Notes under the pieces: generated by a model
What the model was told of the DNA's origin: nothing
Database searches by the model: none
What the model saw: only the letters and a program-made list of their open reading frames with translations
Made by a program: the position numbers and the translations under genes
Source of the DNA: Neocallimastix lanati (nom. inval.)
Taxonomy: Eukaryota; Neocallimastigomycota; Neocallimastigomycetes; Neocallimastigales; Neocallimastigaceae
Assembly: GCA_016946835.1 (NCBI GenBank)
Contig: JACVTC010000081.1
Location: forward strand, 802,001-866,000
Direction of reading: 5' to 3'
DNA: 64,000 nucleotides
In this document: positions 3,419 through 30,126 of the stretch, piece by piece
Position numbering within the stretch: the stretch's first letter is position 1
How the letters are laid out: every line of letters begins with the position of its first letter

Positions 3419-3432
3419 AATTTTACTAACTG

Positions 3433-4099
3433 TGATACGGAACAATCTAATATTGCTTATATTATTGAATTTATTATTTTATATTTGTTTTTATTTCTTT
3501 TATATTACTTTTATTTTATATCTTTATTTTTATTTTAAGTTTTTATTTGTATTTTTACTTTTACTTTATTTTTATTTTAATTTTTATTATATTATTTTTA
3601 TCTTATATTTTATTTTTATTTTATATTTTTATTTTTATTTTTACTTTTACTTTTATTTTTACTTTAATTTTTATTATTTTTATATATTATTTTATTATTT
3701 TTTATATTTTATTTTAATTAATTAAAAATTTATTTGAACCAATAAAAAAACTTCATTAAATTCTATAAATAACTTGTAAAATCAAAAAATATTAAAAACT
3801 CTCTCTCAAAATTTTATAAATTAAATTTTAGAATAAAATAAGGTAAAATAAATTAAGGGTGTTTTAATTTAGTGTTAAGCTGTGTTGTTAATATAATAGT
3901 TTTAAGTTTAAATAATAATTAAGTTAGTTAAGGGGTTTAAAATAAAATAAAAGAGAGCTTAGTTAATATTTAAAAACATTAGAATATTAATGTTGAGTTT
4001 AATTAGTTTAGATAATATTCGGAAATAATTAAATAAGTTTAATTAGAATTAATTAGAATATATTATTATTGAAAATAAATAAATGAAAAGTCCTGTACC
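3433..4099 (+). repeat. 5' LTR of element 1
   Basis: Starts TGATACGGAACA and ends CCTGTACC(A), matching the copy at 9517-10183 almost base for base. The interior is a T-rich U3 (the open frame there is low-complexity Phe/Tyr/Leu and is not a gene). The last part contains ATATTATTATTG and GTCCTG, which pair with sequence beyond the primer-binding site. Confidence 0.92.
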
Positions 4100-4143
4100 A
4101 TAAAAATTTTGGCGAGCTATGCAGGACAAGACAATAATAATAT
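4060..4143 (+). promoter_or_regulatory. Primer-binding site of element 1 enclosed by a U5/leader stem
   Basis: The candidate primer-binding site TGGCGAGCTATG (4110-4121) starts 10 bp after the LTR. It is bracketed by complementary arms: GTCCTG (4090-4095) with CAGGAC (4122-4127), and further out ATATTATTATTG (4060-4071) with CAATAATAATAT (4132-4143). The same geometry with unrelated arm sequences occurs in elements 2, 3 and 6, so the stem rather than its sequence is conserved. The matching tRNA primer was not identified; it is not the tRNA-Asn or tRNA-Arg of this window. Confidence 0.7.
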
Positions 4144-4175
4144 GAAAATAATTAATTCAATAATTTAGAATAGAC

Positions 4176-4217
<42 letters not shown>

Positions 4218-4377
4218 AGTATAAATTAATAATAACAATAATATAAGAAATTTTATAAATTGAAAGAATAAAATATAGTTAAAGTAATAAATAATTGAAT
4301 AATAATTAATTTAGTGTGTAGAATTTTAATAAATATATTTATATATAATAGTGATAGTAGTAATAGTGAGTTATAAA

Positions 4378-4463
<86 letters not shown>

Positions 4464-4791
4464 TGATCCATCCATCAACCTTTGGATTGAAATATTGTTA
4501 TTGTTGTTCAACTGGTAATAGAAGTTTTCCTTCTTTTGTTATTTAAACAACAGTAATTTTAATTTCAGCATTATACAAGCTGCTAATTTCGGTCAGCGTG
4601 GGGGATTAGGGCTGTGTAAAGATCTTCGAGTCGTTTGCAAGTGCGAGGAGAAGTGACGGAATGAACACAGGGGACGAAACGTCACAGAAATTAGCGTATA
4701 ATAATAAGATTACTGGTCGGGTTTTTATAACAAAATAACAGTTTAATTAGTTATATAAAATATTAAAATATTAACAATAGAAAGTAAGAGA
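4144..4791 (+). other. Element 1 untranslated leader
   Basis: Leader between the primer-binding site and gag. It holds two long poly(A) runs (about 4182-4215 and 4425-4460), an (AAT)n microsatellite (about 4380-4425), and then a markedly G+C-richer 160-bp stretch (about 4560-4720) with no open frame. That stretch probably folds as the packaging or dimerisation domain; this is inference from composition and position. Confidence 0.55.
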
Positions 4792-5700
4792 ATGAAGATT
4801 TTAGAAATCCAAAAATTATTACCAAGAGTAACTGAATCAACAGGAGAATTGGACTCTTGGTTTGAAGAGTTTAATAGGTTGATGGCTCTAGCAGATATAG
4901 AATCTCCTAAGAGTATATTCATTTGGGCATTAGAATGTGTAAATGGAAGGCTAAGAGGTGTAGTACAAGAACTAGAAAAGGAAACTGAAGATGGTAAGAT
5001 TTATCCATCCATAAAAGAGATAAAAGAAGCTTTGGAGGAAGCACTTAGGATCACACCACAAGAAAAATGTAAAATGCTACAAAAATTGAAGATTCAAAGG
5101 GGTGAAACAATAGCCGACTTCAACTGGAGATATAAGAAACTCTACGATAGCTTACCAAAATTTTACCAAACATTTGTTACTGTAGATGATTATATTGAAT
5201 CAATTAAGTATAGACCTTACATTAGATCTCAAGTAATTACCCAACGATCGGAAGATTTAGAAGACGCGTTTGAAGAAGCTGAATTGGCCGAGAGAGCGGA
5301 ACAAATAAAGACGTCAAATAAAGTTACGGTAATGACAACACTATTTCATGGCCAGTCCAATAATCAATCTGAAAGATATCAACATGAATACAATAATAAT
5401 AGAAGGAGTAATAATTACTTTAATACTAGAAGGAATAATTATAATAATAACTATAATTATAATCAGAAGCAGAATCAAAGACGCACACTTCAAAATAATA
5501 ATTATTTTAACCAAAGAAATGTAAATAATACTGAATTTGAAAATAAATCTCAAAATGAAACAAATCACAATGAAAATATAGTTTGCTTCCGATGTGGAAA
5601 AATAGGTCACATCTTTAGAAGGTGTCCTTATACATTTAAGCAGTTAGCTGAAATAGAAGAGAGAGAAAATAAAGAAAAAGAAAATAATCATTTAAACTAA
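4792..5700 (+). CDS. gag: Gag polyprotein of element 1
   Basis: Structural Gag protein of a Ty3/gypsy element, expected to build the cytoplasmic virus-like particle. The 302-residue open frame starts at an ATG shortly after the leader. Residues ~1-165 form the capsid-like domain, clearly related to the Gags at 11524 and 58813 (shared motifs such as Gln-Glu-Lys-Cys, and Phe-Asn-Trp-Arg-Tyr in two of them). Residues ~190-260 are an Asn/Tyr/Arg-rich linker. A CCHC zinc knuckle, CFRCGKIGHIFRRC, lies at ~265-278 and should bind the RNA. The stop TAA follows a TTTAAAC slippery heptamer directly, so a fraction of ribosomes should shift -1 into pol. Reading frame fully intact. Confidence 0.92.
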   Translation: MKILEIQKLLPRVTESTGELDSWFEEFNRLMALADIESPKSIFIWALECVNGRLRGVVQELEKETEDGKIYPSIKEIKEALEEALRITPQEKCKMLQKLKIQRGETIADFNWRYKKLYDSLPKFYQTFVTVDDYIESIKYRPYIRSQVITQRSEDLEDAFEEAELAERAEQIKTSNKVTVMTTLFHGQSNNQSERYQHEYNNNRRSNNYFNTRRNNYNNNYNYNQKQNQRRTLQNNNYFNQRNVNNTEFENKSQNETNHNENIVCFRCGKIGHIFRRCPYTFKQLAEIEERENKEKENNHLN

Positions 5701-5723
5701 TAAATGGGAGAAGGGAAACTCCC
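5691..5723 (+). promoter_or_regulatory. -1 ribosomal frameshift signal, gag/pol of element 1
   Basis: TTTAAAC (5691-5697) lies in the gag frame as T TTA AAC, followed by the gag stop within an 8-nt spacer (5698-5705). A hairpin follows: GGGAG (5706-5710), 8-nt loop, CTCCC (5719-5723), extendable by A-U and U-G pairs. Pol is in the -1 frame. TTTAAAC is one of the strongest eukaryotic -1 slippery heptamers (known from coronaviruses). The arrangement is identical in elements 2 and 3. Confidence 0.88.
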
Positions 5724-6155
5724 GTATATCAAACCACAACCTATCAGAACCCTACAGAGTCAAAAGAACCAATTTTAGCTGCGGTTATAAGAAGAAATAA
5801 AAATAATTCTGGTTCAAAACCTTATGAAAATAGAACTATAAGAACATTAAAAGAAAACCCAGTTAGTATACCAATCCCTAAAGGCCTTCAGTATGCTCAA
5901 GATAACATGGAAACTGAAAATAACAAAAGTTCCAACACAGAAAAACTTGAAGAAGTAGATGTTTCAATAATTGCACAACCATCAATAAATAAAGCGAAAA
6001 GCATGTCAAAAATAGAAAGAACTAAAGAAATACAGACCGAAACAGAAAAGAATAACAGCAATATCAATAAACCAAATAAGAATTAAAGTACATTACCAAG
6101 TGATACAATAAAAGAAAAAAGGAATAAGCAACTAGGTAATAACAATACTAAACAT

Positions 6156-9100
6156 GTGTCTATGATGGAAGGAAGGAAAAGGTACAACATTACAGACGAC
6201 CTAAACAAGCTAATGGCAAATATCTCAATATCCCAATTGATTGATGCGAGTCCTAAGCTAAGATCGGAACTCTCTAAGGCATTAAAATTGAAAGCCCCTG
6301 AGATGACTGAAGAAAACCCAGAAAAGGTGATGATGTCCGCATTAAGCAGAGAAGACGTTGCGACCGCAGAATGTATCGTAGAAAACACACCAGGAGTAGC
6401 GTTTCTAGATACTTGTGCTAGCATTAACTTAATTACAAGGAAATACTTTAACAAATTAAAGAATATAACTCCATCTGGATACACTGATGATAACATTATT
6501 CAAGTTTTCTCCAATAAGAATATCGTTATGGAAACTTGTTATTTGAGACTAAAATTTGGAAATATAGAAATACAAGATAGCTTTAGGATAATTGATCATG
6601 ATAAAAATATCTTTGACGTACTAATCGGATATAGAACACTTAAAGAAAATCACCTTTTCATAAACCCAGTTGACAATTTCCTTTGTAGAATGAACAGAGA
6701 TGAGACTTGGGAGAGAATAATACCTTTACACAAAAAGGATAAATGTATAAGCACTGAAGAATTGCCTACCAAACAAACAAATGAAGAAGAAGACAGATTG
6801 TTGTTACTTTGTTTTACAAAAAAGGTAAAAGAAAAAGAGGATATTGACGAGAAAAAGGAAATAATTGATAAGTTAATATTGGAAATTCCGTGGAAATATA
6901 AAAAACAAGTTAAAAAATTATTTAATAAATATTATCATATTTTAGCTACCAAAATTGAGGAATTACAGTCAACTAAATTATTACCACATACCATTCAATT
7001 GAAAGATGGTGCTAAACCAATCAAACAAAAATGCTATCGCTTATCAAAGGTACAAGCTGATGCACTTAAGGAAGAAATCACCAAGTTAATTAATAATAAA
7101 CTTATAGAACCATCCAATTCACCATGGTCTTTCCCTGTAATACTAGTTCTTAAAAAAAATAATAAATGGCGAATGTGCATAGACTTTCGAAAATTGAATG
7201 ATTTAACTATAAAAGATGAATACTCATTACCCTTAATAGATGAAATCCTTTTCTCCATAGGGAAGAAAGTCAAATATTTTACAACCATAGACTTGTTTTC
7301 AGGATTCCATCAAATTCCAATGTCAAAGAATGATATTCCTAAAACCAGTTTCACTACTATCTTTGGAAACTATCAATTTCGTGTCATGCCTTTCGGTCTC
7401 TGTAATGCACCAGCAACCTTCCAGAGGGAAATGAACAGGATCTTTTTCCCACTAATTGGAGTATGTATGTTCATCTACATCGACGACTTAGTTATTTTTT
7501 CCAATTCATTAGAAGAACATATTAAAGATATTATTAAAGTTTTTGAAATTATATCCGTAAATCGGTTAAAAGTAAATCTAGAAAAATGCAATTTCTTTAA
7601 GAAAAAGGTAGAGCTTCTGGGACATACACTCTCAGTTGAAGGAATTTCACCGATAATGTCTAAAGTCAACGCCATTGCTAGTTGGTCTGCTCCTACAACA
7701 GTAAAGCAACTCCAGTCCTTCTTGGGCGCAGTTGGATACTATCGTAAATTTATTGCTAATTACTCAAGTATTGCTAAACCTCTCTATAAACTTTTAAAGA
7801 AAGAAACCCCATTTGTTTGGAACTCAGAACAAGAAGAAGGATTCGATAAGTTGAAAGATAGATTAATGAAAGCACCAATACTAACAATGCCAGATTTTGA
7901 AAAGCAATTTATTATACGTACGGATGCATCATATTCAGGAATAGGAGGTGTATTATTACAGAAAGATGAAAAAAATAATGAAAAGCCAATACATTTTATT
8001 AGTCGAACTTTAAAACCAGGAGAACAAAACTACGGAATTACTGATCTTGAAGGTAATGCTGCTGCTTATTGTGTCAAAAAATTTAAATCATACTTTGCTG
8101 GAAATAAATTCGAAACTCTTCTCTACACGGATCACAAACCATTAGTAGGACTCTTTAAGAATAAAGAAACAAATAATGCAAGACAGACAAGATGGGTAAT
8201 ATTATTTTCAATGCTTAAAATAAAAGTATTATACGAACCCGGAAAAAAGAATGTCATAGCAGATGCACTGTCCAGAATGGAATCTAAAGACGAAATAGTT
8301 GCTCCTTTAATATTGGAAGATGGTAATAACCCCGTTAATAATTTTAAAAATAGCTTTGTAACAATTGACAATGTAGAATATTATGATGATAAAGATTCTA
8401 AAACCCTAAGAAAAGTTATAAAGGATAATGAAGAAAAGATAAATCTTGTTTTACAGGCCCATGGAATCGGGCATGAAGGAATATTCAAGACTTATAATCG
8501 GCTCAAACGCGACTACTACTGGAGAAACATGATATTGGATGTTAAGTACTTAGTTAGAACATGTAAAAGATGCCAACTCTTTCGTCCACAAACAGGAAAT
8601 TATCAAACTGAAAATTTATCTACTAAACCTGGTTTACCATTTACGAAGGTTGGATTAGACATTGTTGGACCTTTACCCAAAACACAGAAGGGATACCAAT
8701 ATATCTTTGTATTAGTAGATTATCTTACCAAGTGGGTCGAAGCCGAACCCAGTATTAATATCGAATCTGATGATGTTATACATTTTCTTACAAGAGTATT
8801 TTCTAGGCACGGTACACCAGAGATACTTGTCACTGACAACGGTCCGCAGTTTCGATCAGATAAGACAAAGTCTTTCTTAGATCTCTATGGTGTCTATGTA
8901 AACTATACTAATGTTTATCACCCGGAATCCAATGGCGAGGTAGAGAATCGCAATAAAGAAATTGGGAAGTATTTAAGAATATTATGTAATAAAAATACTA
9001 CTAATTGGGACGAAATCCTTCCAAGTGCATTATGGGCTATTAGAACATGTAAGCATGAAACAACTAAATTTTCAAGTTTTGAGCTTCTATATGGTCGTCG

Positions 9101-9500
9101 GGATTTGCAGCCATTTGAGCTAATGATTAACTTAGATAAAAAAGAGGAGTGGGAGTCTGACGAAGAATATTTAATTAGAAGATTCACAAAACATAATAAA
9201 TGGATAAAAGAAGCTGTTAACAATATTGAAACAGCTAATAAGCTTTGGGAAGATCGGAGAAAACAAATGAAGAGACTTAAGGCAGATTACAATCCAGGGG
9301 ATCTTGTATTAGTACGACTAATAAATCGAAGAAAACTTGACCCATTTTTCCTTGGACCAATGAAGATAGTTAAAAAACAATTTAATACTGTTACCTTGTG
9401 TGATCCGCTCACTAATGAAATTGCAGAACGTAATGTCCATTTAAAAAATATTGTTCCGTATAAGTTATGTGAAATAGAGACTTCAGGGACGAAGTCCTAA
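6156..9500 (+). CDS. pol: Pol polyprotein (PR-RT-RH-IN) of element 1
   Basis: Enzyme polyprotein in the -1 frame relative to gag. The frame is open from the slippery site (~5697) but is cut by TAA at 6084-6086; it is then open for ~1,110 residues. The start given is only the first non-ATG codon of the open stretch, and translation is expected by frameshifting. Seen in order: aspartic protease core LDTCASINLIT (~85-95, with Cys where Gly is usual); RT with FGLCNAPATFQ and active site YIDD (~430-435); RNase H with IRTDASYSG, TDLEGN and YTDHKPL; and integrase with an HX3H...CKRC zinc motif (~770-810), D (LDIVGPLP), D (VTDNGPQF) and E (SNGEVEN). A GPF-like module (FFLGPMKIVKK) lies near the C-terminus. 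No chromodomain is visible. Only the TAA argues against activity. Confidence 0.92.
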   Translation: MSMMEGRKRYNITDDLNKLMANISISQLIDASPKLRSELSKALKLKAPEMTEENPEKVMMSALSREDVATAECIVENTPGVAFLDTCASINLITRKYFNKLKNITPSGYTDDNIIQVFSNKNIVMETCYLRLKFGNIEIQDSFRIIDHDKNIFDVLIGYRTLKENHLFINPVDNFLCRMNRDETWERIIPLHKKDKCISTEELPTKQTNEEEDRLLLLCFTKKVKEKEDIDEKKEIIDKLILEIPWKYKKQVKKLFNKYYHILATKIEELQSTKLLPHTIQLKDGAKPIKQKCYRLSKVQADALKEEITKLINNKLIEPSNSPWSFPVILVLKKNNKWRMCIDFRKLNDLTIKDEYSLPLIDEILFSIGKKVKYFTTIDLFSGFHQIPMSKNDIPKTSFTTIFGNYQFRVMPFGLCNAPATFQREMNRIFFPLIGVCMFIYIDDLVIFSNSLEEHIKDIIKVFEIISVNRLKVNLEKCNFFKKKVELLGHTLSVEGISPIMSKVNAIASWSAPTTVKQLQSFLGAVGYYRKFIANYSSIAKPLYKLLKKETPFVWNSEQEEGFDKLKDRLMKAPILTMPDFEKQFIIRTDASYSGIGGVLLQKDEKNNEKPIHFISRTLKPGEQNYGITDLEGNAAAYCVKKFKSYFAGNKFETLLYTDHKPLVGLFKNKETNNARQTRWVILFSMLKIKVLYEPGKKNVIADALSRMESKDEIVAPLILEDGNNPVNNFKNSFVTIDNVEYYDDKDSKTLRKVIKDNEEKINLVLQAHGIGHEGIFKTYNRLKRDYYWRNMILDVKYLVRTCKRCQLFRPQTGNYQTENLSTKPGLPFTKVGLDIVGPLPKTQKGYQYIFVLVDYLTKWVEAEPSINIESDDVIHFLTRVFSRHGTPEILVTDNGPQFRSDKTKSFLDLYGVYVNYTNVYHPESNGEVENRNKEIGKYLRILCNKNTTNWDEILPSALWAIRTCKHETTKFSSFELLYGRRDLQPFELMINLDKKEEWESDEEYLIRRFTKHNKWIKEAVNNIETANKLWEDRRKQMKRLKADYNPGDLVLVRLINRRKLDPFFLGPMKIVKKQFNTVTLCDPLTNEIAERNVHLKNIVPYKLCEIETSGTKS

Positions 9501-9516
9501 CTCAACGGGGGCATCT
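9479..9516 (+). promoter_or_regulatory. 3' hairpin and polypurine tract of element 1
   Basis: GACTTC (9479-9484) pairs with GAAGTC (9491-9496) around a 6-nt loop and overlaps the pol stop. ACGGGGGCATCT (9505-9516) directly precedes the 3' LTR and should be the plus-strand primer (polypurine tract). The same pair of signals is kept in elements 2 and 6. Confidence 0.75.
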
Positions 9517-10183
9517 TGATACGGAACAATCTAATATTGCTTATATTATTGAATTTATTATTTTATATTTGTTTTTATTTCTTTTATATTATTTTTATTT
9601 TATATCTTTATTTTTATTTTAAATTTTTATTTGTATTTTTACTTTTACTTTATTTTTATTTTAATTTTTATTATATTATTTTTATCTTATATTTTATTTT
9701 TATTTTATATTTTTATTTTTATTTTTACTTTTACTTTTATTTTTACTTTAATTTTTATTATTTTTATATATTATTTTATTATTTTTTATATTTTATTTTA
9801 ATTAATTAAAAATTTATTTGAACCAATAAAAAAACTTCATTAAATTCTATAAATAACTTGTAAAATCAAAAAATATTAAAAACTCTCTCTCAAAATTTTA
9901 TAAATTAAATTTTAGAATAAAATAAGGTAAAATAAATTAAGGGTGTTTTAATTTAGTGTTAAGCTGTGTTGTTAATATAATAGTTTTAAGTTTAAATAAT
10001 AATTAAGTTAGTTAAGGGGTTTAAAATAAAATAAAAGAGAGCTTAGTTAATATTTAAAAACATTAGAATATTAATGTTGAGTTTAATTAGTTTAGATAAT
10101 ATTGGGAAATAAATAAATAAGTTTAATTAGAATTAATTAGAATATATTATTATTGAAAATAAATAAATGAAAAGTCCTGTACC
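9517..10183 (+). repeat. 3' LTR of element 1
   Basis: Near-identical to 3433-4099; differences are a few substitutions. It is followed by AACTG (10184-10188), which is at once the right duplication of element 1 and the left duplication of element 2. Confidence 0.92.
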
Positions 10184-10188
10184 AACTG

Positions 10189-10903
10189 TGATCCGGAACT
10201 AGCTTATTTACCTCAAATAAGCATATATAAGAATGATAAAAAGAAAAAAATATAAAATGTTTATAATAATGAAATTATTTAAAATTAAAATAGTTATAAA
10301 AAAAAATTATTTATAATAAAATTATTTATAATAAAAATAATTATCTATAAATTGTTTTTAATAAAATAAATACAGAAATATTTAATTCTGTATAAAATTA
10401 AATCGATTGACAATACTAACTATTATTTTTATTGTTTTCTCTAAAATAGATTATTATTTTCTGTATTCTTTTTACAATAATAAACTTTATGAGAATATAA
10501 TATTAATAATTTACAAGAATATTAAATTATATATTAATTGATAAATTAAAACATTATTAGAATAGATAGTTAAAATTTTAAATATAAATAAATCATTAAT
10601 AATTATAAAACTATATTTTAAAATAGATACTTTAGAATAGGTTAATTTTAAAATATATTAATATTAAAATAACATTCATAATAGAATAATATAAATAAAT
10701 GTATATGTTAATGTTCAATTCAAGATTCATGTAAAAAAAAAAAAAAAAAAAAAACTATAAAAGGAAGAAATTTTCTTTCTTTTGAAAAAGGACAACAATA
10801 AAATAAAATAAAAATTTATAAAATACTTTTAAACTAATAAAAATTTATTTATAATATTTAATATTGTGTTTTTAAAATATTGTGTGTGATCTGTGCCCAT
10901 ATC
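10189..10903 (+). repeat. 5' LTR of element 2
   Basis: TGATCCGGAACTAGC to GTGCCCATATC, matching 14831-15545. Contains a poly(A) run (~10733-10754) and near its end TGTGTGTG and GTGCCC, which pair with sequence beyond the primer-binding site. Confidence 0.92.
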
Positions 10904-10935
10904 GGAAATTGGTGGAGAATCCGGGCGCACACACA
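10881..10935 (+). promoter_or_regulatory. Primer-binding site of element 2 enclosed by a U5/leader stem
   Basis: Candidate primer-binding site TGGTGGAGAATCC (10910-10922), six bases after the LTR. The LTR end TGTGTGTG (10881-10888) plus GTGCCC (10893-10898) is complementary to GGGCGCACACACA (10923-10935) on the other side, with a short bulge. The primer-binding core TGGTGGAGA is shared with elements 3 and 6, so they use the same tRNA. Confidence 0.7.
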
Positions 10936-11302
10936 AAAATATGAAATAAACACATAAATTAATATTATAAATAATAGATTTTTTTATATTTTGTTTCAGA
11001 GGAAACAAAGATTTATTTTTTTTAAAGAAGTTTCAGAGGAAACTTAAATTTATTATTTTTATTACTTTTGTAAAAGTTTCAGAGGAAACTTATTTTGAAT
11101 TTACTTTTTTATTAAATCTTTTCGTTTATATTTTTTATAAAAAAAAAAAAATTTTTTTTATTAGTTTTCTCATAAAAATTTTTTGTGTGGCATAAGATAT
11201 TGTTACACAATCTTTATATTTTTAAATAATATTTTTATTAAAAAAGAAAAAATAATAATAAAATTTTTTATTTTTATATTATTAAATAATTATTTTTATA
11301 TA

Positions 11303-11348
<46 letters not shown>

Positions 11349-11523
11349 TTTTTTTTTCTCAATTTTATATTATTAAATATTTTTTTTATAAAAAAAATAT
11401 ATATATATATTCAATTTTATATTATTAAATAACCTTTTTATAAAATATATATATATATATATTTTTCTCAATTTTATATTATTAAATAACTTTTATTTAT
11501 AAAAAAAAAATTTTTATTTTAAG
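10936..11523 (+). other. Element 2 leader with three identical AGAG-loop hairpins
   Basis: Three copies of GTTTCAGAGGAAAC, each a hairpin with an AGAG tetraloop: 10990-11009 (8-bp stem), 11028-11045 and 11074-11091 (7-bp stems). The outer base pairs differ but stay complementary. Downstream is A/T-rich DNA with poly(A)/(T) (about 11308-11357) up to the gag ATG. The small Lys/Phe/Ile open frame at 11183-11428 is low complexity and not called. Repeated hairpins in a leader suggest a packaging signal (inference). Confidence 0.7.
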
Positions 11524-12771
11524 ATGAAAATCAGTGAAATTTCCCGTATGATTCCTAGATTAGGAAATCATGATAGGGATATAGAAAGTTGGGCCGAGGA
11601 GTTCCAAAGAATTATGGAACTTGCTAACATTGAGGAACCAAAAAGGATTTTCGCGTGGGCAAAAGAGTGCGTTCAGGGACGTCTTAAGGGTATACTCGAA
11701 GACCTTAAGACTATAGATGGTGATGATGTTACTTATCCCAATATAAACGAAATGAAAACTGCTATTGAAGATTATCTGGAGGTTACCCAACAAGAAAAAT
11801 GCTTTAATTTAAAGGCACTCAAAATAAGAAGAAACGAAACTATTAGGGATTTTAATTGGAGATATAATAACTTACATAATTCATTAAACCCTGAATCCCA
11901 GGAATTTATCACAATTAAAGATTATTGTAATTCTATATCAAGTAGACCTTTTGCCAGAACCCAAGTAATTACTGCTCAACCAGATACACTTGAAGAGGCA
12001 CTCCAAATTGCTGAATTAGCCGAAAATGCAACTGAAGCACCAAACATTCCGAATAACATAATAATGGCTCTGGGAAATGAAAATAATAGTTTTCAATACA
12101 ATCCTTATTATATGCCCAATAGCTCTCCTTTTAATTTCTTACACAATAATCCTTATTATGACACTTTTGATAATAACATAAATCCCGTCCTTTATACTAA
12201 TAATAAATCCTTCAATATTCCTAATAACAATGGAAATATGAATTATAGATATAATAGAAAGTATAATAATTATTATAATACTTATTCTAATCTTTATAAT
12301 AATAATAAATACAATAACCGATTTAATCACGGATTAAACAATAACAATTCTCAATATGACCCTTATAACAATTTTTATAATAATAATTTTAATAATTTTG
12401 ACAGTTACTATAGGAACAATTTCAATAATAATTATTTGAAAAATGATAATAATCTTAATAAAATTAATAACTTCAATAATACGAGATATAATAGTAATAG
12501 CAATAATAATATTAATAATGAAAGATTCCTCACAAACAATGTAAACAATGATAGAAATTTGAATAAACAAGCTAAAAATAATAATTATAATAATGTCAAT
12601 AATAACAATTATATTAATAATAATAGTAAAACATTAAAATGTTTTAAATGCAATCAATTCGGGCATAAATTACAAGATTGTCCATATTCTTATCGTGAAT
12701 TAGCCATAATGGAAGAAGAAGGAAAGCTTAGTATCAATAATATTAATAATAACAATAAGCCTTTAAACTAA
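11524..12771 (+). CDS. gag: Gag polyprotein of element 2
   Basis: 415-residue Gag, intact from ATG to TAA. The N-terminal ~170 residues are the capsid-like domain, clearly homologous to element 1 Gag (for example Asp-Ile-Glu-Ser-Trp-Ala-Glu-Glu-Phe, Gln-Glu-Lys-Cys, Phe-Asn-Trp-Arg-Tyr). Residues ~180-375 are an extreme Asn/Tyr-rich low-complexity linker. The CCHC knuckle CFKCNQFGHKLQDC lies at ~379-392. It is longer than element 1 Gag only because the linker expanded. An intact Gag in an otherwise pol-less element fits a non-autonomous element that can still form or enter particles. The gene ends in TTTAAAC TAA, the frameshift site. Confidence 0.92.
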   Translation: MKISEISRMIPRLGNHDRDIESWAEEFQRIMELANIEEPKRIFAWAKECVQGRLKGILEDLKTIDGDDVTYPNINEMKTAIEDYLEVTQQEKCFNLKALKIRRNETIRDFNWRYNNLHNSLNPESQEFITIKDYCNSISSRPFARTQVITAQPDTLEEALQIAELAENATEAPNIPNNIIMALGNENNSFQYNPYYMPNSSPFNFLHNNPYYDTFDNNINPVLYTNNKSFNIPNNNGNMNYRYNRKYNNYYNTYSNLYNNNKYNNRFNHGLNNNNSQYDPYNNFYNNNFNNFDSYYRNNFNNNYLKNDNNLNKINNFNNTRYNSNSNNNINNERFLTNNVNNDRNLNKQAKNNNYNNVNNNNYINNNSKTLKCFKCNQFGHKLQDCPYSYRELAIMEEEGKLSINNINNNNKPLN

Positions 12772-12794
12772 TTAATGGGAGAAGGAATACTCCC
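12762..12794 (+). promoter_or_regulatory. -1 ribosomal frameshift signal, element 2
   Basis: TTTAAAC (12762-12768), 8-nt spacer (12769-12776), GGGAG (12777-12781), 8-nt loop, CTCCC (12790-12794). The -1 frame encodes the Gly-Arg-Arg-Asn-Thr-Pro start seen in element 1. A one-base indel near 12820 then puts the rest of pol in another frame, so the signal no longer leads to the long pol remnant here. Confidence 0.82.
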
Positions 12795-12979
12795 AGAAAT
12801 CAAACCTATTCACATCAACCAATAATTCATACTATACAAGACCTTCTGAACAGGAAATTGTTGCTGCGGCCATTAGAAAAACAAAAAATAAAATTGATAA
12901 TACACCTTATCATCAAAAAACAATTAAAGAAAACTTATTATCAAACCCGCAACCTATTAAAATTCCTGCTAATAATACG

Positions 12980-13036
12980 ATGGAAATGGAAATGGATAAC
13001 GTTAATAATGATAATAATAATAAAAATAAAAATATA

Positions 13037-13095
<59 letters not shown>

Positions 13096-14818: not shown

Positions 14819-14830
14819 GCGGGGAGATTC
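14791..14830 (+). promoter_or_regulatory. 3' hairpin and polypurine tract of element 2
   Basis: GACTTC (14791-14796) and GAAGTC (14804-14809) form a hairpin; TAAGCGGGGAGATTC (14816-14830) is the polypurine tract before the LTR. The pol deletion ends immediately upstream of this hairpin. Confidence 0.75.
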
Positions 14831-15545: not shown

Positions 15546-15550
15546 AACTG

Positions 15551-18248: not shown

Positions 18249-18398
18249 ATCGTCAAAAAAATTGCTTCAGTCTGCCATCGTTCCAAAACAGTTGACTTAA
18301 AAGAAGATGATGATTATGAAGAAACTGCTGATTTCCAAGAAGGTACTACTACGGATTATTACGAAGATTTTGATGATGAGTCGGATGGTTCCAAAGAA

Positions 18399-21300: not shown

Positions 21301-22216
21301 GTGAAAAATGTCAATTAAATAAATCTCAACCATACCCTGAACCAACGGAAGATAAACCAACTGAAATGGAAGGACCATTTACACACTTAGGATTGGACAT
21401 TATAGGACCTCTAAGTAAAACCAGAAATAATAATCAATATATAATCGTTGTGGTTGATTATTTTACTAAATGGGTTGAGGCAGAGCCCACTGAAAATGTT
21501 ACTTCTCAGAATGTGATAAAATTTTTAATTAATGTATTTGCTCGACACGGTGTACCTCAAATTATCACTACTGATAATGGAACACAATTAACATCAGATA
21601 TGACAAAAATCTTCCTTGATTTATATGATGTATATGTTAAATTTATCACTCCATATCATCCTGAAAGCAATGGTTTAGTTGAGAATCGTATAAATAAATT
21701 GGAAAATTATTACGATTACTAGGACAACAACACAAAGAATGGGATGAAATTTTACCATCTGCACTTTGGGCTTTAAGAACTACTAAAAACTCAATCACCA
21801 ACCATTCAAGTTTTGAATTAGTTTATGGAAGGGAGGACCAACAACCTTTTGACATTGCTGCCAGACCAACTAAGGGTATAAATAAGTCTTCTGACGAAAT
21901 TCTACTTGAAAAATTTGTATCACACTACCAATGGGTAATGGAGGCCGCATCTAATATCAAAAATGCTTCGAAGTATTGGGCTACTAGGAGAGAAGAAAAG
22001 ACTAGTATGAATCAAGCTAAAAGAATAAAACCAGGTGATTTAGTACTAGTAAGAAACTTTAATCGAACTAAATTAGAACCTTACTTTGTTGGACCTATGA
22101 AAGTGGTAAAGAAACAATTCAATACAGTCACTTTAGCTGATCCTGCTACTAATATACAAATGAATCGTAATGTTCATTTGAAAAATATTGTCAAGTTTAA
22201 CTCAGCTTCTACCTAG
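18399..22216 (+). pseudogene. pol: Pol polyprotein (PR-RT-RH-IN) of element 3, broken
   Basis: The -1 frame is open from the slippery site through 18399 to a TAG at 20535-20537, which replaces the Trp that element 1 has at the RT/RNase H junction. The same frame then continues to ~21720, where a single-base indel shifts the remainder (to 22216) into another frame. Domains: protease LIDSCSNLSIIT (Asp-Ser-Cys); RT with FGLTGAPATFQ and active site FIDD; RNase H with IRTDASYDG, TDLEGA, YADHRPL; integrase HX3H...CEKC, then D (LDIIGPL), D (TTDNGTQL), E (SNGLVEN); C-terminal FVGPMKVVKK. All catalytic residues are still present, so the two lesions are recent. The breaks prevent a full-length polyprotein. 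Confidence 0.9.
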
Positions 22217-22226
22217 CTTGAGTCTT

Positions 22227-22239
22227 AGCGGGGGCATCT
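22227..22239 (+). promoter_or_regulatory. Polypurine tract of element 3
   Basis: TAGCGGGGGCATCT-type tract ending directly at the 3' LTR, nearly the same as in element 1. The GACTTC/GAAGTC hairpin of elements 1, 2 and 6 is not present here. Confidence 0.7.
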
Positions 22240-23024
22240 TAATACAGAATGGACAAATAATACTAATTGTGCTAGAATAATATAAATTATTCTAACCTTA
22301 TAGATTATTCTATTCTATATAATTGGAACTTTCCAATATTCTTTAAATATTACTAAATAGAAATCTTAAGTTAATAAATCACCAATTAACATATAATTCC
22401 TTTTTGAATTATCGATCCGATTCCATTATAATGTATTAAAAATCTTTAGCCAAGAATATTGTCCTTGCCCACTTAATATATTAATATTATATTTCTTTTG
22501 TATTATGTTATATTGAAAATAATCAAATCTATTTAATTAGTTATTAAAATTTTCGTTATTAATTTAAATTTATTTTTAATTACTAAATTTAACTAAACCA
22601 CAATAAAATATTCTGTATAATCTCTTTATTTTTATTTTATATATATTAGTATTAAACTATTATTAAATAATTAATAATTCAATAATATATAACTACTATT
22701 TATAACAATAATATTATTAACTAAAATAATAATTCAATTTCAATTTAAATGTTTTATTTATAAAAATAATTAGTAATTAGTTTATTAAAAAAATAGTTAG
22801 GCTTTACAAATTTTAATTTGATAAAAAAATATAAATACATGTAATTTTTAGTGAAATAAAATATAATCAATAACTTTCTTTTTATTAAATAAATAATTAT
22901 ATTATTATTTTTCTTTTATAAATTTAAATAAATAAATATTGATTTTAAAACAAAATTATTTTTATTGTAATTTTATTATTTGTGTTAATTATTATTATAT
23001 TCCTAAAATTATATGAACCATACC
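22240..23024 (+). repeat. 3' LTR of element 3
   Basis: Uninterrupted version of the 5' LTR; starts TAATACAGAATGG and ends GAACCATACC. Followed by AACTG (23025-23029). Confidence 0.9.
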
Positions 23025-23031
23025 AACTGTG

Positions 23032-23824
23032 TGTAATAATTTCTATAAATTATAGAAATTATTATTTATAATTAATATTAACTAAACTATTAATATTAAA
23101 AAAATTAAAATAAAAATTAAAATAAAAATAAGAATTTAATACTTATCTTTAAAATAGAGTTTATTATAAGAAAATATAATAGACCTTGAATATGAAAAGA
23201 GAAAATAAAATATGTTTTTTTAAAAGAACTTTATTAATCTATTTAATTATTAAATATTTTATTATTTTTTTTTTGATAAATTTTAAAATAATTATTTTAT
23301 ATTAATTGAAATCTTAATGTCGTTTATTGTTATTATATTTTTCTTAAAATAATAACTCTTGATTTTCTAAAGACGAAAATCAACAGCTATTTATATTTTT
23401 ACAAAAATAAATGTATTTTTCTAATCTTAACAATGATTCTTTCCAGAAAAAGATTAGAAGAAAAAACTGGAAAGATTTTTGATCAATAATCTATACTTAT
23501 TGATCATCGTGTTATTAAATAAAACCAATTATAATTAATCGGAAAAACTTTAATAACCGATTTTAATAACTAAAAGAATTAAAAAGAAAAAAGGATAAAA
23601 AAGAGAAGGATAAAATAATGCAGAAAATTTATTAAATACATTTTTTCTATGAAATAATACAGAAGTTATATTAAATACATTTTTTCATATAACAATTAAT
23701 ACATTAATTGGTATAATTGTTTTTAAATGAAATAAATTTTTTTTTAAAGAATAATAATTATGAAATAATTATTAATTAATAAGAAATAGAAATAAATTAT
23801 AAAAATTTATATCAATTTCTTACA
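23032..23824 (-). repeat. 3' LTR of element 4
   Basis: Matches 28823-29613 with few differences. On the plus strand it opens with a perfect 14-bp inverted repeat, AATAATTTCTATAA (23035-23048) and TTATAGAAATTATT (23050-23063), which forms a hairpin at the U5 end of the RNA. A second hairpin, TTGATTTTC (23359-23367) with GAAAATCAA (23375-23383), sits next to the TATA-like region. Confidence 0.88.
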
Positions 23825-23834
23825 TTGCACCTCC

Positions 23835-24768
23835 TTATGATGCATCCACTAGTTCCGGATTTCTTTTTGTATAAGGCTCCAACTGGGAAACATGAAATAC
23901 CGGATGTAAATGTAGATTTTCTGGCAAATCCAAGCTGTAATTCATTCTCTCCCTCACTTCCAAAACTCTAAACGGCCCAAGATATTGTGAAGAAAGTTTT
24001 TTGGATGGCTCATTTGTAAAGTAATACCTTTTTAGCCATACAAAATCATTTATTTTGAATGAAGGTCCAGTAGCTTTCTTCGAATCTCCAAACTTCTTAA
24101 AATTTTCTTTAGCTTTTTGTAAGTGTCTCTTCAATGCTTCGAAATGTGAGGACCAATCCCTGGTTAAAGCGGAAGCATTATCCTTTAGAAGAACAGGAGG
24201 CGACTCTATAGTGCAGGAAGGATTAAAGCCATAATTAGCAAAGAATGGTGATTTACCTATGGACTTATGCAGGGAGTTGTTATAGGCCATTTCACATAAA
24301 GGAACATAATAACACCATTCATTCTGGGACGTTGAACAATAACATCGGAGATACTGCTCAATTACTGCATTTGCACGCTCAATTTGTCCATTGGATTGTT
24401 GATGGTGAGCTGTAGCAAGTCTTGGATTAGCGTTAATAGCAGAACACAACGAAGTCCAAAATTCTGATGAAAATTGAGAACCATGGTCCGAAACAATTAT
24501 TTTAGGGAATCCATGGTAGCGAAAAACATTGAATAGAAGCATTTTGGCAGTCAGATCAGCGGAGGGAACATCAGAACAAGGGACAAGGTGAATCATTTTG
24601 GTCAGTTGGTCAGCTACAACCATTAAACATGTACAATCTTGCGAGCTGGGAAGTGAAGTGATAAAGTCAACGCCAATTATTTCCCAAGGTCTACTGGGAA
24701 CCGGTAAAGGTTGTATTTTACCATATGGCTTGTGTCTTCGGAGCTTATTTCTTCCACAAACATCGCAT

Positions 24769-24771
<3 letters not shown>
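23835..24771 (-). pseudogene. pol: Integrase part of element 4 Pol
   Basis: C-terminal part of Pol, reading leftward. It contains the integrase core: D (VVADQLTKM), D (VSDHGSQFSS) and E (SNGQIERAN), followed by a beta-barrel C-terminal region with YLGPFRVLEV and HPVFHVSQLEPY, typical of chromovirus integrases. The protein ends ~15 residues later, so no chromodomain is present. The upstream end is cut off from the zinc-binding half of integrase (24887 onward) by a 101-bp insertion. It is in the correct frame across the insertion site once the duplication is allowed for. Confidence 0.88.
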
Positions 24772-24809
<38 letters not shown>

Positions 24810-24872
24810 CTAGGAATAAACTTTATTTAATAATATTTTTTTTTTAAAAAATACATGAGGTTTAAATACATG
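24772..24872 (-). mobile_element. 5'-truncated polyadenylated retro-insertion
   Basis: Flanked by a perfect 14-bp duplication AAACATCGCATGAG (24758-24771 and 24873-24886). On the minus strand about 66 bases of A+T-rich sequence carry AATAAA (24827-24822) 15 bases before a ~35-base poly(A). This is the hallmark of L1-type target-primed reverse transcription of an mRNA or LINE 3' end. The parent transcript is not identifiable. The insertion breaks integrase between its Cys-X2-Cys residues. Confidence 0.85.
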
Positions 24873-24886
24873 AAACATCGCATGAG

Positions 24887-26250
24887 GATATGTAATTCTT
24901 GATGTCTTTTTTCATATTTGGCCACCAATAATTTCTTCTTAATTTTTCAAAAGTTTTATCTACTCCTTGGTGACCATTAGTTGGACCATCATGATACATT
25001 TTCAATACCTTGGCCTTGAGTGAAGAAGGGACAATTATTCGGTTCTGAAAATGCAGAACCCCTTCGACGATGGTAAAAAGCGAACTTTTTACTTCATTTG
25101 ACCTTGTTTTAATTTTATTGAGTGTATCCTTACAGTATGTGTCAGACTTCTGAGCTTCAATTAAGACTTTTAAGTTGTCAGAAGGTGCACAATAAAATAT
25201 CTCTTCATCTAACAGAGGATAACCTTCATTGGTCGAATCTTTGTTGACGTAATCAGGGCGTCTTGATAAAGAGTCAGGTTTACCACTCTTAATACCGGAG
25301 CGAAATGAAACCCTATAAGTGAACTTTGAGAGAAAGAGACTCCATCTAATTTGTCTTTGGTTTAATTTTTGAGGTTGCTTAAAATATAACAGATTTCTGT
25401 GATCTGTGACTACTTGTACTGGAAATTTAGCACCTTCTAGGTGATGGCGCCAGGTTTCAAAAGCTACGATTATTGCAAGTAATTCCTTGTCGTAAATAGT
25501 ATAATTTATTTCAGCAGAAGACAAGGACCTAGAGTAGAAAGCAACCGGATGGAGTTTATTGTCTTTGTTACTAATTTGAGATAAAACACAACCAACAGCG
25601 AAATTGCTAGCGTCCGTTTCTACAAAGAATTCTTTCTCTGGATCTGGATAAACTAGGATTTCTTTCGTCGTAAAAGCTTCTTTGAGTTTGTTGAAAGCAT
25701 TGTCTGCCCTAACATCCCAAATGAAGGAAGAGTTCTTTTTCAAAAGCCGACGGAGAGGTTCAATGATCTCGGCAAAATTATTTATAAACTTCCTATAGAA
25801 GTTACAAAGTCCTAGAAACCCTTGGAGTTCTTTAATATTTTTTGGGATAGGCCAGTTGATAACAGCTTTAACCTTATTCTTGTCCATTGAAAGACCATTT
25901 ACAGACACCACAAACCCTAAAAAAATAGTTTCTTTAACATGAAAATCACATTTTTCCAATTTCACGTAAAGACCATTTTTAATTAGAAGCGACAATATTT
26001 TACGAACATGTTGAATATGTTCGTCCAAACTTTTTGAATAAATTATTATATCATCCAAGTATACTTGAACAAATATGCCAATTGCATCAGATAAAACATC
26101 CTGGATGAATCTTTGAAACACCGAGGGGGCATTTCTTAGGCCAAAGGGCATTACTAGATATTCAAATTGGCCTAAAGGTGTTCTAAAAGCAGTTAAATAT
26201 TCATGACCTTCTTTAACGCGGACAAGGTTATACGCAGATCGAATGTCCAA
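24887..26250 (-). pseudogene. pol: RT-RNase H-integrase N-terminus of element 4 Pol
   Basis: Reverse transcriptase from the LDIRSAYN motif onward (first catalytic Asp), FGLRNAPSVFQ, active site YLDD, then the conserved GLCNFYRKFI thumb, RNase H (VETDASNFAVG, DKELLAI, VTDHRNL), and the integrase HX3H and first Cys of the zinc motif. The open frame ends artificially at 24862 inside the retro-insertion. The upstream end is separated from the rest of RT by a one-base loss in a G run near 26267. The first codon is not a real start. Confidence 0.9.
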
Positions 26251-26335
26251 ACGAGTAAATATTACTGCCCCTTAAACGATTCAATCAAGTCAACCAATCT
26301 TGGGATAGGGTAGCTATTCCTAATTGTAATAGAAT

Positions 26336-27946
26336 TTAATTTCCTATAATCAACGCAGAGTCGTAAGCTTCCATCTTGTTTTTTTTTACAAACAGGACAG
26401 GGGCACCAGCAGGTGATTTTGACTTCCTTATAAACCCCTTATCTAAATTTTCTTTTAAATAGTTTTTAAGAGCTTCCATTTCGACAATCGTAAGAGAGTA
26501 CACAGGTCCATAATATAATTGACCACCAGGGACTAGGTCAATTGATATATCATATTCACGATGTGGAGGCAATTTGTCTGCCTCTTTCTTTTCAAATACA
26601 ATTTTCAAATCTTGATAGTATATGTTGATAATTTCATCTTTATCAGTTTCATTTACTAAAGCGGCGTAAATATCTATATCAAAAAGTTCGTCACCAGATA
26701 TTGAGTATGTTTCTGTTTTATCTTTTGATACATTGTTGTTTTCGTTGTTTGGCAAAATTGCAGCAGTAACATCTTTAGAGTGAAAAATGAATTTATTCCC
26801 TTTTGCTGAAGGGCAGTGATTTCCGCAGTGGTTCTCTAAAAAGTAAATCTTATTATTTTTGAAATCTACGTATGGCATATGAATACTCAACCAATCTCTT
26901 CCAAGGATGGCTGATATTCCCTGAAGTTGTAAGGTAGCTACGTAGAATTCATAGCTTTCCTTGTGGTCCATGAAGGCAAGGCCTAATTTCTTCGTTACTT
27001 GTCTTATATTCATACTTTTGTTGTTCGGTAACTGAATGTTCAATGGTGAAGACAAGGTAGATAATTGAATTCTGTTGGCGTTTACAAAGTCTCTACAGAT
27101 GTAACTTCTTGCAGAACCAGAATCAATAAGGACGTTTATTTTCATTTTCTTTCCATTATTATTTAATATAAATGTAGTGGTCATTGAATTTGAGGTGTTT
27201 GGTGTATAGTTAGCCGAAAGAATGCTTTCTTTGTTTTGATCTTTTCTGAATTTCTTGTGTACTTTATTGTTCTTGAATTCCTGTTTTGGATGCTCATCTC
27301 TTTTTCTTTTTTGCGACTTGTTGGTTGACTTATTTGTTTTGGCTAGGTTGTTAATATAACATTTTTTATCGATGCTGATGATTGAATTTGTTGCTTCAAA
27401 AAGGGTCTTTGGTCTTTCGATTTTATCGAACTCCAGACGAACCTCCTCAAGAAGGCCTCTCCGGATAAGGTCAATAAAAATATCGTCGTTCCAACCAATT
27501 CTTGACGCTAATCTTCTGAATTCAATAGTAAAGAACGCTGCCTTTCCGAGGTGAAGCTGTTTAAGGTTCAAAAGTTCTTCAATTAAAACAAACCTTTGTT
27601 CCTTTGTATCTCCAAAATTTTCTAACAATAACCTCTTAAATTCCTCATAGGTGAGAGAATTAAGTGTTCCATCAGCCTTGAGAGATAATCCCCATTTTTT
27701 AGCTGGTCCATAAAGTTTGCTGATAACGAAAGCGTTTCTAAAGTTGTCATTTGGGAACGAATTGGCATGTTCATCAAAGAACAATTCACACTGTTCCGTT
27801 AGTTCGTTTAGATTAAACTTTGTGTTGTCTTCATTGCGGGCCAACACACCGTTAGGTGAAAAAAATGTGGGAATAAATTCGGTAATTGCAGAAATTAATT
27901 TTGACGCTTCAGCTTCCTTAGTAGCTTCCATACTGATTGAATTCAT
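26336..27946 (-). pseudogene. gag-pol: Gag-protease-RT N-terminus of element 4
   Basis: Starts at ATG 27946 and encodes a Gag of ~235 residues with a retrotransposon-gag fold region (Trp-Gly-Leu-Ser-Leu, Arg-Arg-Leu-Ala-Ser) and a Lys/Arg-rich tail (~215-245) in place of a zinc knuckle. The aspartic protease VLIDSGSARSYI (canonical Asp-Ser-Gly) is at ~275-286, then the RT lead (YYGPVYSLTIVEMEALK, PAGAPVLFVKK). The frame then breaks by loss of one base in a poly(A) tract at ~26385 (nine As where ten would keep the frame); the last ~12 residues are out of frame. Gag and Pol in one frame contrasts with elements 1-3. Confidence 0.9.
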
Positions 27947-27973
27947 TAAAATATTAAATAGACTTTTTTAATA

Positions 27974-28066
27974 TAGATCTTTAAAATATCTTTAATATAT
28001 CTTTAATATATCTTTAAAATATCTTTAAAATATCTTTAAAATATCTTTAAAATATCTTTAAAATAT
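27974..28066. repeat. Tandem ATATCTTTAAA repeat
   Basis: About nine imperfect copies of an 11-bp unit (ATATCTTTAAA/ATATCTTTAAT) just upstream of the gag start of element 4. Confidence 0.85.
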
Positions 28067-28126
28067 GTATATAATTGTTAAATATAAATTATTTATATTA
28101 ATAATAGAAATTTATAACTTCGGAGT

Positions 28127-28330
28127 CTAGAAGAACACTTCCAATATTTTAACAGAAATGAGCATTTCCGACCAATTTTCCAGAAGCCCCTGAGTTTGAG
28201 TGATAGTATGCGCTATACGACCAGCTTGCCTATTAATGGTGTCTTGTTGCCGCGCGCACCACGATTGCAATCTGTTTACCATTAAAACATACCAGTTCAG
28301 AGCCTCCCGCACAGCTTGTCGTGAAGGGTA
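28127..28330 (-). CDS. Small open frame in the leader of element 4, unrecognised
   Basis: A G+C-richer stretch in the otherwise A+T-rich leader contains an open frame of ~61-67 residues. It has no ATG near its start; the first candidate codon is GTG, and the frame opens at a TAA just upstream. It is amphipathic and Gln/Arg-rich (Asn-Arg-Leu-Gln-Ser-Trp; Thr-Ile-Asn-Arg-Gln-Ala-Gly-Arg), compatible with a short coiled coil. It could be a captured host exon, a fragment of an ancestral gag N-terminus, or structured leader RNA that happens to be open. It ends ~180 bases before gag. Confidence 0.35.
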   Translation of the reverse strand, partial: YPSRQAVREALNWYVLMVNRLQSWCARQQDTINRQAGRIAHTITQTQGLLENWSEMLISVKILEVFF

Positions 28331-28673
28331 AACTTAATCCGGAAATCACTCAGTTACAGGACTCAGGCTACTCCTGCTTCTAAAGTTCGTACTAATTCTC
28401 ATTATATTGTTTATTTTTGGAAATAACTTCTAGAATCCTTTATTATAAATTAATATTATTAAATATAAAAAATTTAATTGTTAGTATAATTTATAGTATA
28501 TAATTTACGTATTTATTATTATTGTTATTGTTATAATTATTTTTTTTAATAATATAATTTTACTATCTACTAGTATATACAATTTAATTTATATAATTAT
28601 AATTTACTATTAAAAAAATTTTTTTTTTTTTTTTTTTTTTATTATATTATTTATTTATCTGATTGGAAAAAAT

Positions 28674-28707
<34 letters not shown>

Positions 28708-28822
28708 CTAATATTATCTATTTATTTATTTGATCGGATAAAATAATTTAATTTTTTTTTTTTTTTACTTTTGTACTACAATATCATAATACAATTAACT
28801 AATTATCTAGAAGAGTTATTAT
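28331..28822 (-). other. Element 4 5' leader with long poly(T) tracts
   Basis: Non-coding region between LTR and the small open frame, with three T-runs (about 28616-28640, 28676-28707, 28752-28766) spaced by similar ATTATCTATTTATTTGATTGG-like segments, suggesting local tandem duplication. No primer-binding site starting TGG adjoins the LTR; a self-priming mechanism as in Tf1 is possible. Confidence 0.5.
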
Positions 28823-29613
28823 TGTAATAATTTCTATAAATTATAGAAATTATTATTTATAATTAATATTAACTAAACTATTAATATTAAAAAAAATAAA
28901 ATAAAAATTAAAATAAAAATAAGAATTTAATACTTATCTTTAAAATAGAGTTTATTATAAGAAAATATAATAGACCTTGAATATGAAAAGAGAAAATAAA
29001 ATATGTTTTTTTAAAAGAACTTTATTAATCTATTTAATTATTAAATATTTTATTATTTTTTTTTGATAAATTTTAAAATAACTATTTTATATTAATTGAA
29101 ATCTTAATGTCGTTTATTGTTATTATATTTTTCTTAAAATAATAACTCTTGATTTTCTAAAGACGAAAATCAACAGCTATTTATATTTTTACAAAAATAA
29201 ATGTATTTTTCTAATCTTAACAATGATTCTTTCCAGAAAAAGATTAGAAGAAAAAACTGGAAAGATTTTTGATCAATAATCTATACTTATTGATCATCGT
29301 GTTATTAAATAAAACCAATTATAATTAATCGGAAAAACTTTAATAACCGATTTTAATAACTAAAAGAATTAAAAAGAAAAAAGGATAAAAAAGAGAAGGA
29401 TAAAATAATGCAGAAATTTTATTAAATACATTTTTTCTATGAAATAATACAGAAGTTATATTAAATACATTTTTTCATATAACAATTAATACATTAATTG
29501 GTATAATTGTTTTTAAATGAAATAAATTTTTTTTAAAGAATAATAATTATGAAATAATTATTAATTAATAAGAAATAGAAATAAATTATAAAAATTTATA
29601 TCAATTTCTTACA
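28823..29613 (-). repeat. 5' LTR of element 4
   Basis: Nearly identical to 23032-23824 and shows the same two hairpins. Followed on the right by CTGTG, the target duplication, whose last two bases are the first two bases of the solo LTR at 29617. Confidence 0.88.
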
Positions 29614-29616
29614 CTG

Positions 29617-30121
29617 TGATACGGTACAACCATAAATACCATAATTTAGTGAAATTTAGGTTAGAAATTATTTGATGAAATCTTATTGGTTAATAATAAT
29701 TTAGTAATATTATATATAGTTAGTAAATAATTATAATTTAAAGAATGGTTCTTTTATTAATATTAATTTAGTTTATTAATAATTTAACCTATAAACATGT
29801 TTATTAGTATAGTTTAGTGTAGTTTTATATTTAGTTTACATTAATAATATGAGAGATTTTAGTAATTAATTATATTTTATTGAATGATTTAATTATATTT
29901 TAACTAATTAACAACTATTTATATTGATGATGTATTTTTATTGATGAATGATAATAAATAAATAAAATAAATAAACTAAATATTAAAGTGTGAATATTAT
30001 TATTGTGTGTATTATTCTATATAATATTAGAATATATTATTTTGTCAATTATTCCCTACTGTTATCGTCCAAATAAAATAAAATAAATATTGATATTGAT
30101 GTTTAATAAAAATATCGTATC
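29617..30121 (+). mobile_element. Solo LTR 5 in the AACTG array
   Basis: Begins TGATACGGTACAACC and ends AAAATATCGTATC, followed by AACTG (30122-30126). Removing element 4 restores AACTG directly before its first base. The first ~100 bases resemble the 3' LTR of element 6 (TTTAGGTTAGAAATT blocks), and the end matches the 5' LTR end of element 6. No internal region remains. Confidence 0.8.
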
Positions 30122-30126
30122 AACTG

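Follow-up and report, generated by a model that had tools for sequence, protein, structure and literature searches.

The window analysed here is a 64 kb stretch of the genome of Neocallimastix lanati (nom. inval.) (C743:802001-866000), of very low G+C content, in which long terminal repeat (LTR) elements of five families, labelled E1 to E5, are stacked within about 27 kb; related copies were sought in the assembly of 199 Mb and 762 contigs. The target of this array is itself an LTR, a solo copy of a further element, E0, which lies in two parts on either side of the array and carries CTTAT on both outer sides (Table 1). The elements hold a shared position relative to tRNA-like boxes in E0 and, at other loci, relative to tRNA genes; they are flanked by 5-bp duplications, and the same place has been used repeatedly.

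The array and its target

An earlier note on this DNA had reported five copies of AACTG at the edges of the LTRs, and a word search places each of them exactly there, on the plus strand, where they separate E1, E2, E3 and the solo LTR E5. AACTG as such is a common word, with 65 occurrences in the window vs 60 +/- 8 in shuffles; the part that is not due to chance is the exact placement of the five copies at LTR edges. The note's further statement that all elements share one duplication and one orientation holds for E1, E2, E3 and E5, whereas E4 lies on the minus strand and is flanked by CTGTG (23027-23031 and 29614-29618). The E4 junctions read AACTGTG followed by TGTAATAA on the left and TTACA followed by CTGTGATACGG on the right, which places E4 2 bp inside the left end of E5 (23030-23031 + 29619-30121); thus four elements share AACTG and the fifth landed 2 bp off. 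LTR ends were judged from the LTR pairs and, for E5, from its edges. The LTRs of E1, E2, E3 and E5 begin with TG or TA and finish with ACC or ATC, not CA.

The order reverse transcriptase (RT), RNase H, integrase is found in one frame in E1 and, in pieces, in E3 and E4. The domain search detected neither RT nor integrase in E2, with weak zinc-knuckle and protease matches only. The LTR pairs differ by 4 mismatches in 667 in E1 (0.60%), 1 in 715 in E2 (0.14%), 8 in about 800 plus small gaps in E3 (1.0%, excluding a 443-bp insert) and 6 in about 790 in E4 (0.76%). The left-to-right increase in decay proposed previously is weak and lacks statistical support: these values form no clean gradient and, among six pairwise Fisher tests, only E2 vs E3 fell below 0.05 (p=0.041, uncorrected). 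With its near-identical LTRs and no detectable RT or integrase, E2 appears to be a recent, non-autonomous arrival at the same landing site. The insert excluded from E3, a sequence resembling a short interspersed element (SINE) in the 5' LTR, resembles a tRNA at its 5' end and contains a perfect B box.

A genome search with positions 3200-3427 returned at least 40 places at 96-100% identity, including six pairs 5.2-5.3 kb apart on the same contig. Among 30 fetched E0 copies (window copy included), AACTG stands at the target point in 23. Half of the 30 run on into AAGATTTCGTTACA (14 exactly, 1 with one change), and the other 15 are cut at the target point or a few bases off; all 30 align unbroken from the target point to LTR position 644. 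Because intact copies continue into AAGATTTCGTTACA, both flanks of the array belong to one E0 LTR. Full copies of E0 (L061-L063) are about 5.9 kb long, with paired LTRs 5.3 kb apart and an open reading frame on the strand opposite to the window-plus LTR orientation. E0 resembles chromoviruses related to those of anaerobic gut fungi in that its 825-aa frame (L061) matches a Ty3-type capsid (gag), SH3_Tf2-1 and a chromodomain (PF00385, E=4.8e-18). It differs from them in that the domain search of this frame gave no RT, RNase H or integrase core, whereas most of the 46 protein relatives listed have RT and integrase domains. One of these relatives is labelled Orpsp1, which we take to be Orpinomyces (Neocallimastigomycota).

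As the DNA is very AT-rich and repetitive, an assembler might have joined the elements through their short common ends. The two CTTAT copies, 27 kb apart, and the two CTGTG copies, 6.6 kb apart, nevertheless agree at both ends, and the same junction types occur on many contigs; an assembly join is therefore extremely unlikely.

Table 1. Coordinates of E0, of the elements stacked in it and of two tRNA-Asn genes in the window.
Feature	Position	Strand	Basis or remark
E0 left target-site duplication CTTAT	2798..2802	.	identical CTTAT at 30141-30145
E0 main part (TGTAACGG...AACTG on +)	2803..3432	- (family coding sense minus)	genome copies, paired LTRs
TTTT, candidate Pol III terminator (weak given the AT-rich DNA)	3342..3345	-	sequence
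B-box-like GGTTCGACTCG	3358..3368	-	43 nt from A box, by counting; consensus match
A-box-like TGATTCAATGG (TGGTTCAATGG in most other copies read)	3401..3411	-	by eye; consensus match
AACTG copy 1, promoter-proximal target	3428..3432	+	word match
E1, gypsy-type (RT-RNase H-integrase)	3433..10183	+	LTRs 3433-4099 and 9517-10183
AACTG copy 2	10184..10188	+	word match
E2	10189..15545	+	LTRs 10189-10903 and 14831-15545
AACTG copy 3	15546..15550	+	word match
E3, gypsy-type, broken pieces	15551..23024	+	LTRs 15551-16796 (interrupted) and 22240-23024
tRNA-derived SINE-like insert in 5' LTR of E3	15598..16040	-	16-bp duplications 15582-15597, 16041-16056
AACTG copy 4	23025..23029	+	word match
TG, first two bases of solo LTR E5, severed by E4	23030..23031	+	
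E4, gypsy-type, reversed	23032..29613	-	LTRs 23032-23824 and 28823-29613; CTGTG duplication
E5, solo LTR, 505 bp, TG repeated by E4 duplication	29617..30121	+	
AACTG copy 5, distal target copy	30122..30126	+	word match
E0 last 14 bp (AAGATTTCGTTACA)	30127..30140	-	contiguous with left part in intact E0 copies
E0 right target-site duplication CTTAT	30141..30145	.	
tRNA-Asn (36130-36203) and foreign LTR edge at 36113	36113..36203	+	16 nt between
tRNA-Asn (57751-57824) and foreign LTR edge at 57840	57751..57840	-	15 nt between

tRNA-like boxes and insertion sites across the genome

Near its 5' end, the E0 LTR carries A-box-like and B-box-like words spaced as in a tRNA gene, with putative RNA polymerase III (Pol III) promoter activity. 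Read by eye on the minus strand, most E0 copies show TGGTTCAATGG and, 43 nt on, GGTTCGACTC. The gap from the insertion junction to the A box is 21 nt, and AACTG lies where the Pol III start would fall. Both the box spacing and this gap, as counted, match those of the tRNA-Trp gene adjoining one E1 copy (L014). A scan for box pairs gave three within the window, at one tRNA gene, at the SINE-like insert and at E0, compared with one in 20 shuffles.

The same families were followed to other loci. From the 44 matches listed for E1, 30 loci were extracted and 31 LTR copies read, including two from the window; for E2, E3, E4 and E5, 20 copies each were read, of 40, 42, 79 and 41 listed matches. Of the 111 LTR starts read, 32 were internal and 79 gave external flanks. 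A tRNA gene was present at 8 of these 79 flanks (two each for E1, E2 and E5, one each for E3 and E4), beginning 14-24 nt from the LTR edge; tRNA-Trp, Ser, Val and Glu are among those found beside E1-E5 copies. An additional 4 flanks are tRNA-like promoters, one being that of this window, and 46 are the terminus of another LTR. Judged by position, several Ty3/gypsy-type families have copies at a distance of 13-23 nt before tRNA genes, which places these copies at or close to the Pol III start.

The relationship was also seen from the side of the tRNA genes. A survey fetched 20 of 63 listed places with scores equal to that of the tRNA-Arg in the window; 10 of them had a tRNA-Asn in view and were scored, and the other 10 had none where expected. 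Upstream of 6 of the 10 tRNA-Asn genes, at 14-18 nt, stands a 16-mer identical to a terminus at an E0 site; for the remaining four, one abutting sequence recurs at another locus and three show a TG-type edge by eye only. The two tRNA-Asn genes of the window are struck in the same manner, with a foreign LTR edge on their upstream side at 15-16 nt (Table 1), and the terminus at 57840, beside one of them, is identical to that at E0 copies L039 and L047. As for E0 itself, no tRNA gene was found within about 1.5 kb at any of the 30 E0 loci (ARAGORN control), and so E0 seems not to seek tRNA genes. On C555, between about 170 and 400 kb, many hits with the tRNA-Arg score, some about 550 bp apart, form a tRNA gene array.

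These distributions bear on whether the integrases might be directed by AACTG or by the E0 LTR sequence as such, without involvement of a Pol III factor. The same few E0 bases are indeed struck repeatedly. Copies of E1-E5, however, also lie upstream of tRNA-Trp, Ser, Val and Glu genes, and termini known from E0 sites turn up again before tRNA-Asn genes and before two other LTR families. The target bases differ in these cases and the distance is similar; E4 used CTGTG. Recognition of the E0 sequence is accordingly quite improbable, and AACTG as the recognised word was rejected because other target bases are used.

A pattern built on the E0 A box, with up to 3 mismatches, matched 283 genome sites (reversed-pattern control, 0) and a longer intact-start pattern matched 137, numbers which do not form a strict ratio because the longer pattern allows equal mismatches over more bases. 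Occupancy was scored on the 100 exact sites listed of the 283. The E0 start was intact (0-1 mismatch) in 60; the remaining 40 were all fetched, and in every one of them foreign sequence interrupts E0, its edge being of TG or TAATAC type. In 31 of these the first retained E0 base is 13-16 (range 10-20 overall). Among the abutting sequences there are 18 different terminal 16-mers, counted without grouping into families, and the most frequent occurs at 16 sites; since only 35 of the 40 recur at an independent locus or in the window, the cut sites are not all proven LTRs. Visual inspection of the 40 showed, at about 7, the first two or three bases of one LTR standing in front of a second, the nesting seen with E5 and E4. 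At L039, the sole such case in a search for far junctions of E0 loci, the far end of E5 meets CAGTT of E0. The 40 cut sites and the 30 fetched copies overlap as sets. Two further LTR families with similar box words, neighbours of E1 (L024) and of E3 (L094), are struck at the same place in 2/20 and 5/20 of their other copies.

Repeated entry at one nucleotide, as the earlier note had argued, is thereby supported and random nesting is rejected. That note had offered joint arrival by segmental duplication as an alternative, which leaves unexplained how 18 different terminal 16-mers came to lie against 40 other E0 copies at almost one position; joint arrival was rejected on this ground. LTR arrays can expand by recombination, and the solo LTRs E0 and E5 do imply that recombination has taken place. 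Growth of the array by unequal exchange, gene conversion or segmental duplication between LTRs, instead of repeated integration, is nonetheless most improbable, given that E1-E4 each have their own LTR pair, that 5-bp duplications stand between different families, that E4 has a duplication of its own, and that the 18 termini occur at other E0 sites.

A nucleosome-free or fork-stalling site common to LTRs and tRNA genes could likewise attract insertions without TFIIIB. Fork barriers in LTRs have been suggested to disperse insertion hotspots and to explain nested clusters (PMC5371812). Insertions, however, mostly lie within a few bp of one another, at a fixed distance from the A box, and no further interruption is seen at positions 248-644 in any of the 30 E0 LTRs, the stretch that could be judged, the query lying at about 20-247. 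We consider this explanation improbable, if slightly less so than recognition of the E0 sequence.

A proposed renewable landing pad and its known relatives

Altogether, the array very probably arose by Ty3-type integration at Pol III start sites, in which a tRNA-like promoter borne by an LTR acts as a landing pad that is renewed with each insertion. TFIIIC and TFIIIB would occupy the E0 LTR and steer the integrases, as TFIIIB guides the integration of yeast Ty3 (PMC8632968). Because the E0 LTR is struck at the offset seen at tRNA genes, each E0 copy would be a mobile landing pad, its promoter activity being putative. Each integration would duplicate 5 bp, one copy of the target staying beside the promoter, so that the following element is inserted on the promoter side of its predecessor. 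Integration upstream of a promoter, combined with target duplication, would renew the site each time, and so the order of the array should give the order in time. The earlier suggestion that new copies enter on the left fits the tRNA-like words lying to that side (3358-3411, minus strand); the inferred order would be E5, E4 (2 bp off), E3, E2 and E1. The outcome would be AACTG-E1-AACTG-E2-AACTG-E3-AACTG-(E5 cut by E4)-AACTG within one solo E0 LTR. E2, in which no integrase was detected, presumably relied on that of a related element for its insertion.

Several observations weigh against this account. With respect to the promoter, neither Rfam (E-value up to 5) nor ARAGORN (three modes) called a tRNA in 3000-3500, and the promoter reading of E0 therefore rests on the boxes and the insertion geometry. 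The E0 copy of the window has one mismatch per box relative to the consensus. The box-pair scan caught only 1 of the 4 tRNA genes in the window, and at E0 its partner for the B box was a different A-like word, at 60 nt and with equal mismatches; the pair 43 nt apart was chosen by eye over it and is our reading. With respect to the insertions, 5 of the 40 sequences abutting cut E0 sites have no recurrence (one is E2 by eye, four are unconfirmed), and the E0 counts are raw and include any haplotype or segmental copies. Among the external flanks of E1-E5, 21 of 79 are unclassified, some of the 46 LTR-terminus calls rest on near-duplicate contigs (L073/L074, L076/L077), and one such call has a doubtful recurrence (L114) behind it. 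Finally, E4 entered in the opposite orientation, and LTR divergence neither proves nor excludes the proposed insertion order.

Integration of gypsy-type elements just upstream of tRNA genes is well known from Ty3, Tj1, Tyl6, Ylt1 and DGLT-A (PMC5911963), with further accounts in PMC8632968 and PMC4600332. The elements described here are similar in their gypsy type, their 5-bp duplications and the narrow window before the tRNA start, which was observed at no fewer than one tRNA gene (>=1) for each of E1-E5; the gypsy gene order is present in E1, E3 and E4 and was not detected in E2, and E5 is a solo LTR. Unlike in those systems, five families are stacked at one promoter, which lies in an LTR rather than in a tRNA gene. 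LTRs with tRNA-derived sequence and conserved boxes A and B are known from Helenus / TRIMp3, and Cassandra LTRs carry 5S-derived sequence (PMC10886601). E0 shares with Helenus / TRIMp3 the tRNA-like A and B boxes in its LTR, recognised by eye and 43 nt apart, and a 5-bp duplication, CTTAT, as in fungal and plant members. In contrast to Helenus elements, which measure 311-1263 bp and whose Pol III transcription is called unproven by their author (PMC10886601), E0 is not a short element, having about 5.9 kb and an 825-aa gag/chromodomain frame. Helenus LTRs are not described as integration targets in the available text, where 'hotspot' and 'insertion site' are absent (PMC10886601). In dictyostelids, as here, several retrotransposon families converge on the flanks of tRNA genes; an LTR-borne promoter was not found in the available part of that account, and the words 'tandem' and 'nested' are absent from it (PMC5006619). 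Searches of the open-licence literature turned up no description of other elements using LTR-borne Pol III promoters as targets, and searching directed at gut fungi found nothing direct. Both ingredients, integration at Pol III starts and tRNA-like promoters in LTRs, are known, and their combination is unreported as far as we found.

The locus joins two things that have been described separately, integrases homing to Pol III starts and LTRs with tRNA-like promoters. If TFIIIB and TFIIIC do bind the E0 LTR, a mobile element would scatter targets for other mobile elements, and nested LTR stacks would be explained by a mechanism instead of by chance. The 283 pattern matches would then provide hundreds of natural test sites that have little beyond the A and B boxes in common with tRNA genes, opening the question of whether the promoter factors alone suffice for a Ty3-type integrase or a functional tRNA gene is required. 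Such sites also offer ordered arrays in which position should give relative age. A broader idea, which we put forward tentatively and regard as rather unlikely, is that a transposable element disperses imitations of tRNA starts across the genome in its LTRs and that these act as self-renewing pads for a guild of Pol III-targeting elements, a system in which the bait diverts insertions from real tRNA genes and host, bait and guests have co-evolved.

Other features of the window

At 30919-30990 and at L088, L107 and L139, a G-run hairpin comes after a terminus like TGGTAGACTCGGGG..., and sequence similar to this terminus adjoins copies of E3, E4 and E5 elsewhere. Flanking the array, a diverged repeat occurs at 1849-2164 and 33560-33872, about 31.7 kb apart, and is possibly another LTR family. 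Farther to the right, FLYWCH and MULE transposase domains mark two reading frames, at 39040-39924 and 47019-48512, and the 4 kb at 41001-45000 have only about 7% G+C, with a steady positive GC skew.

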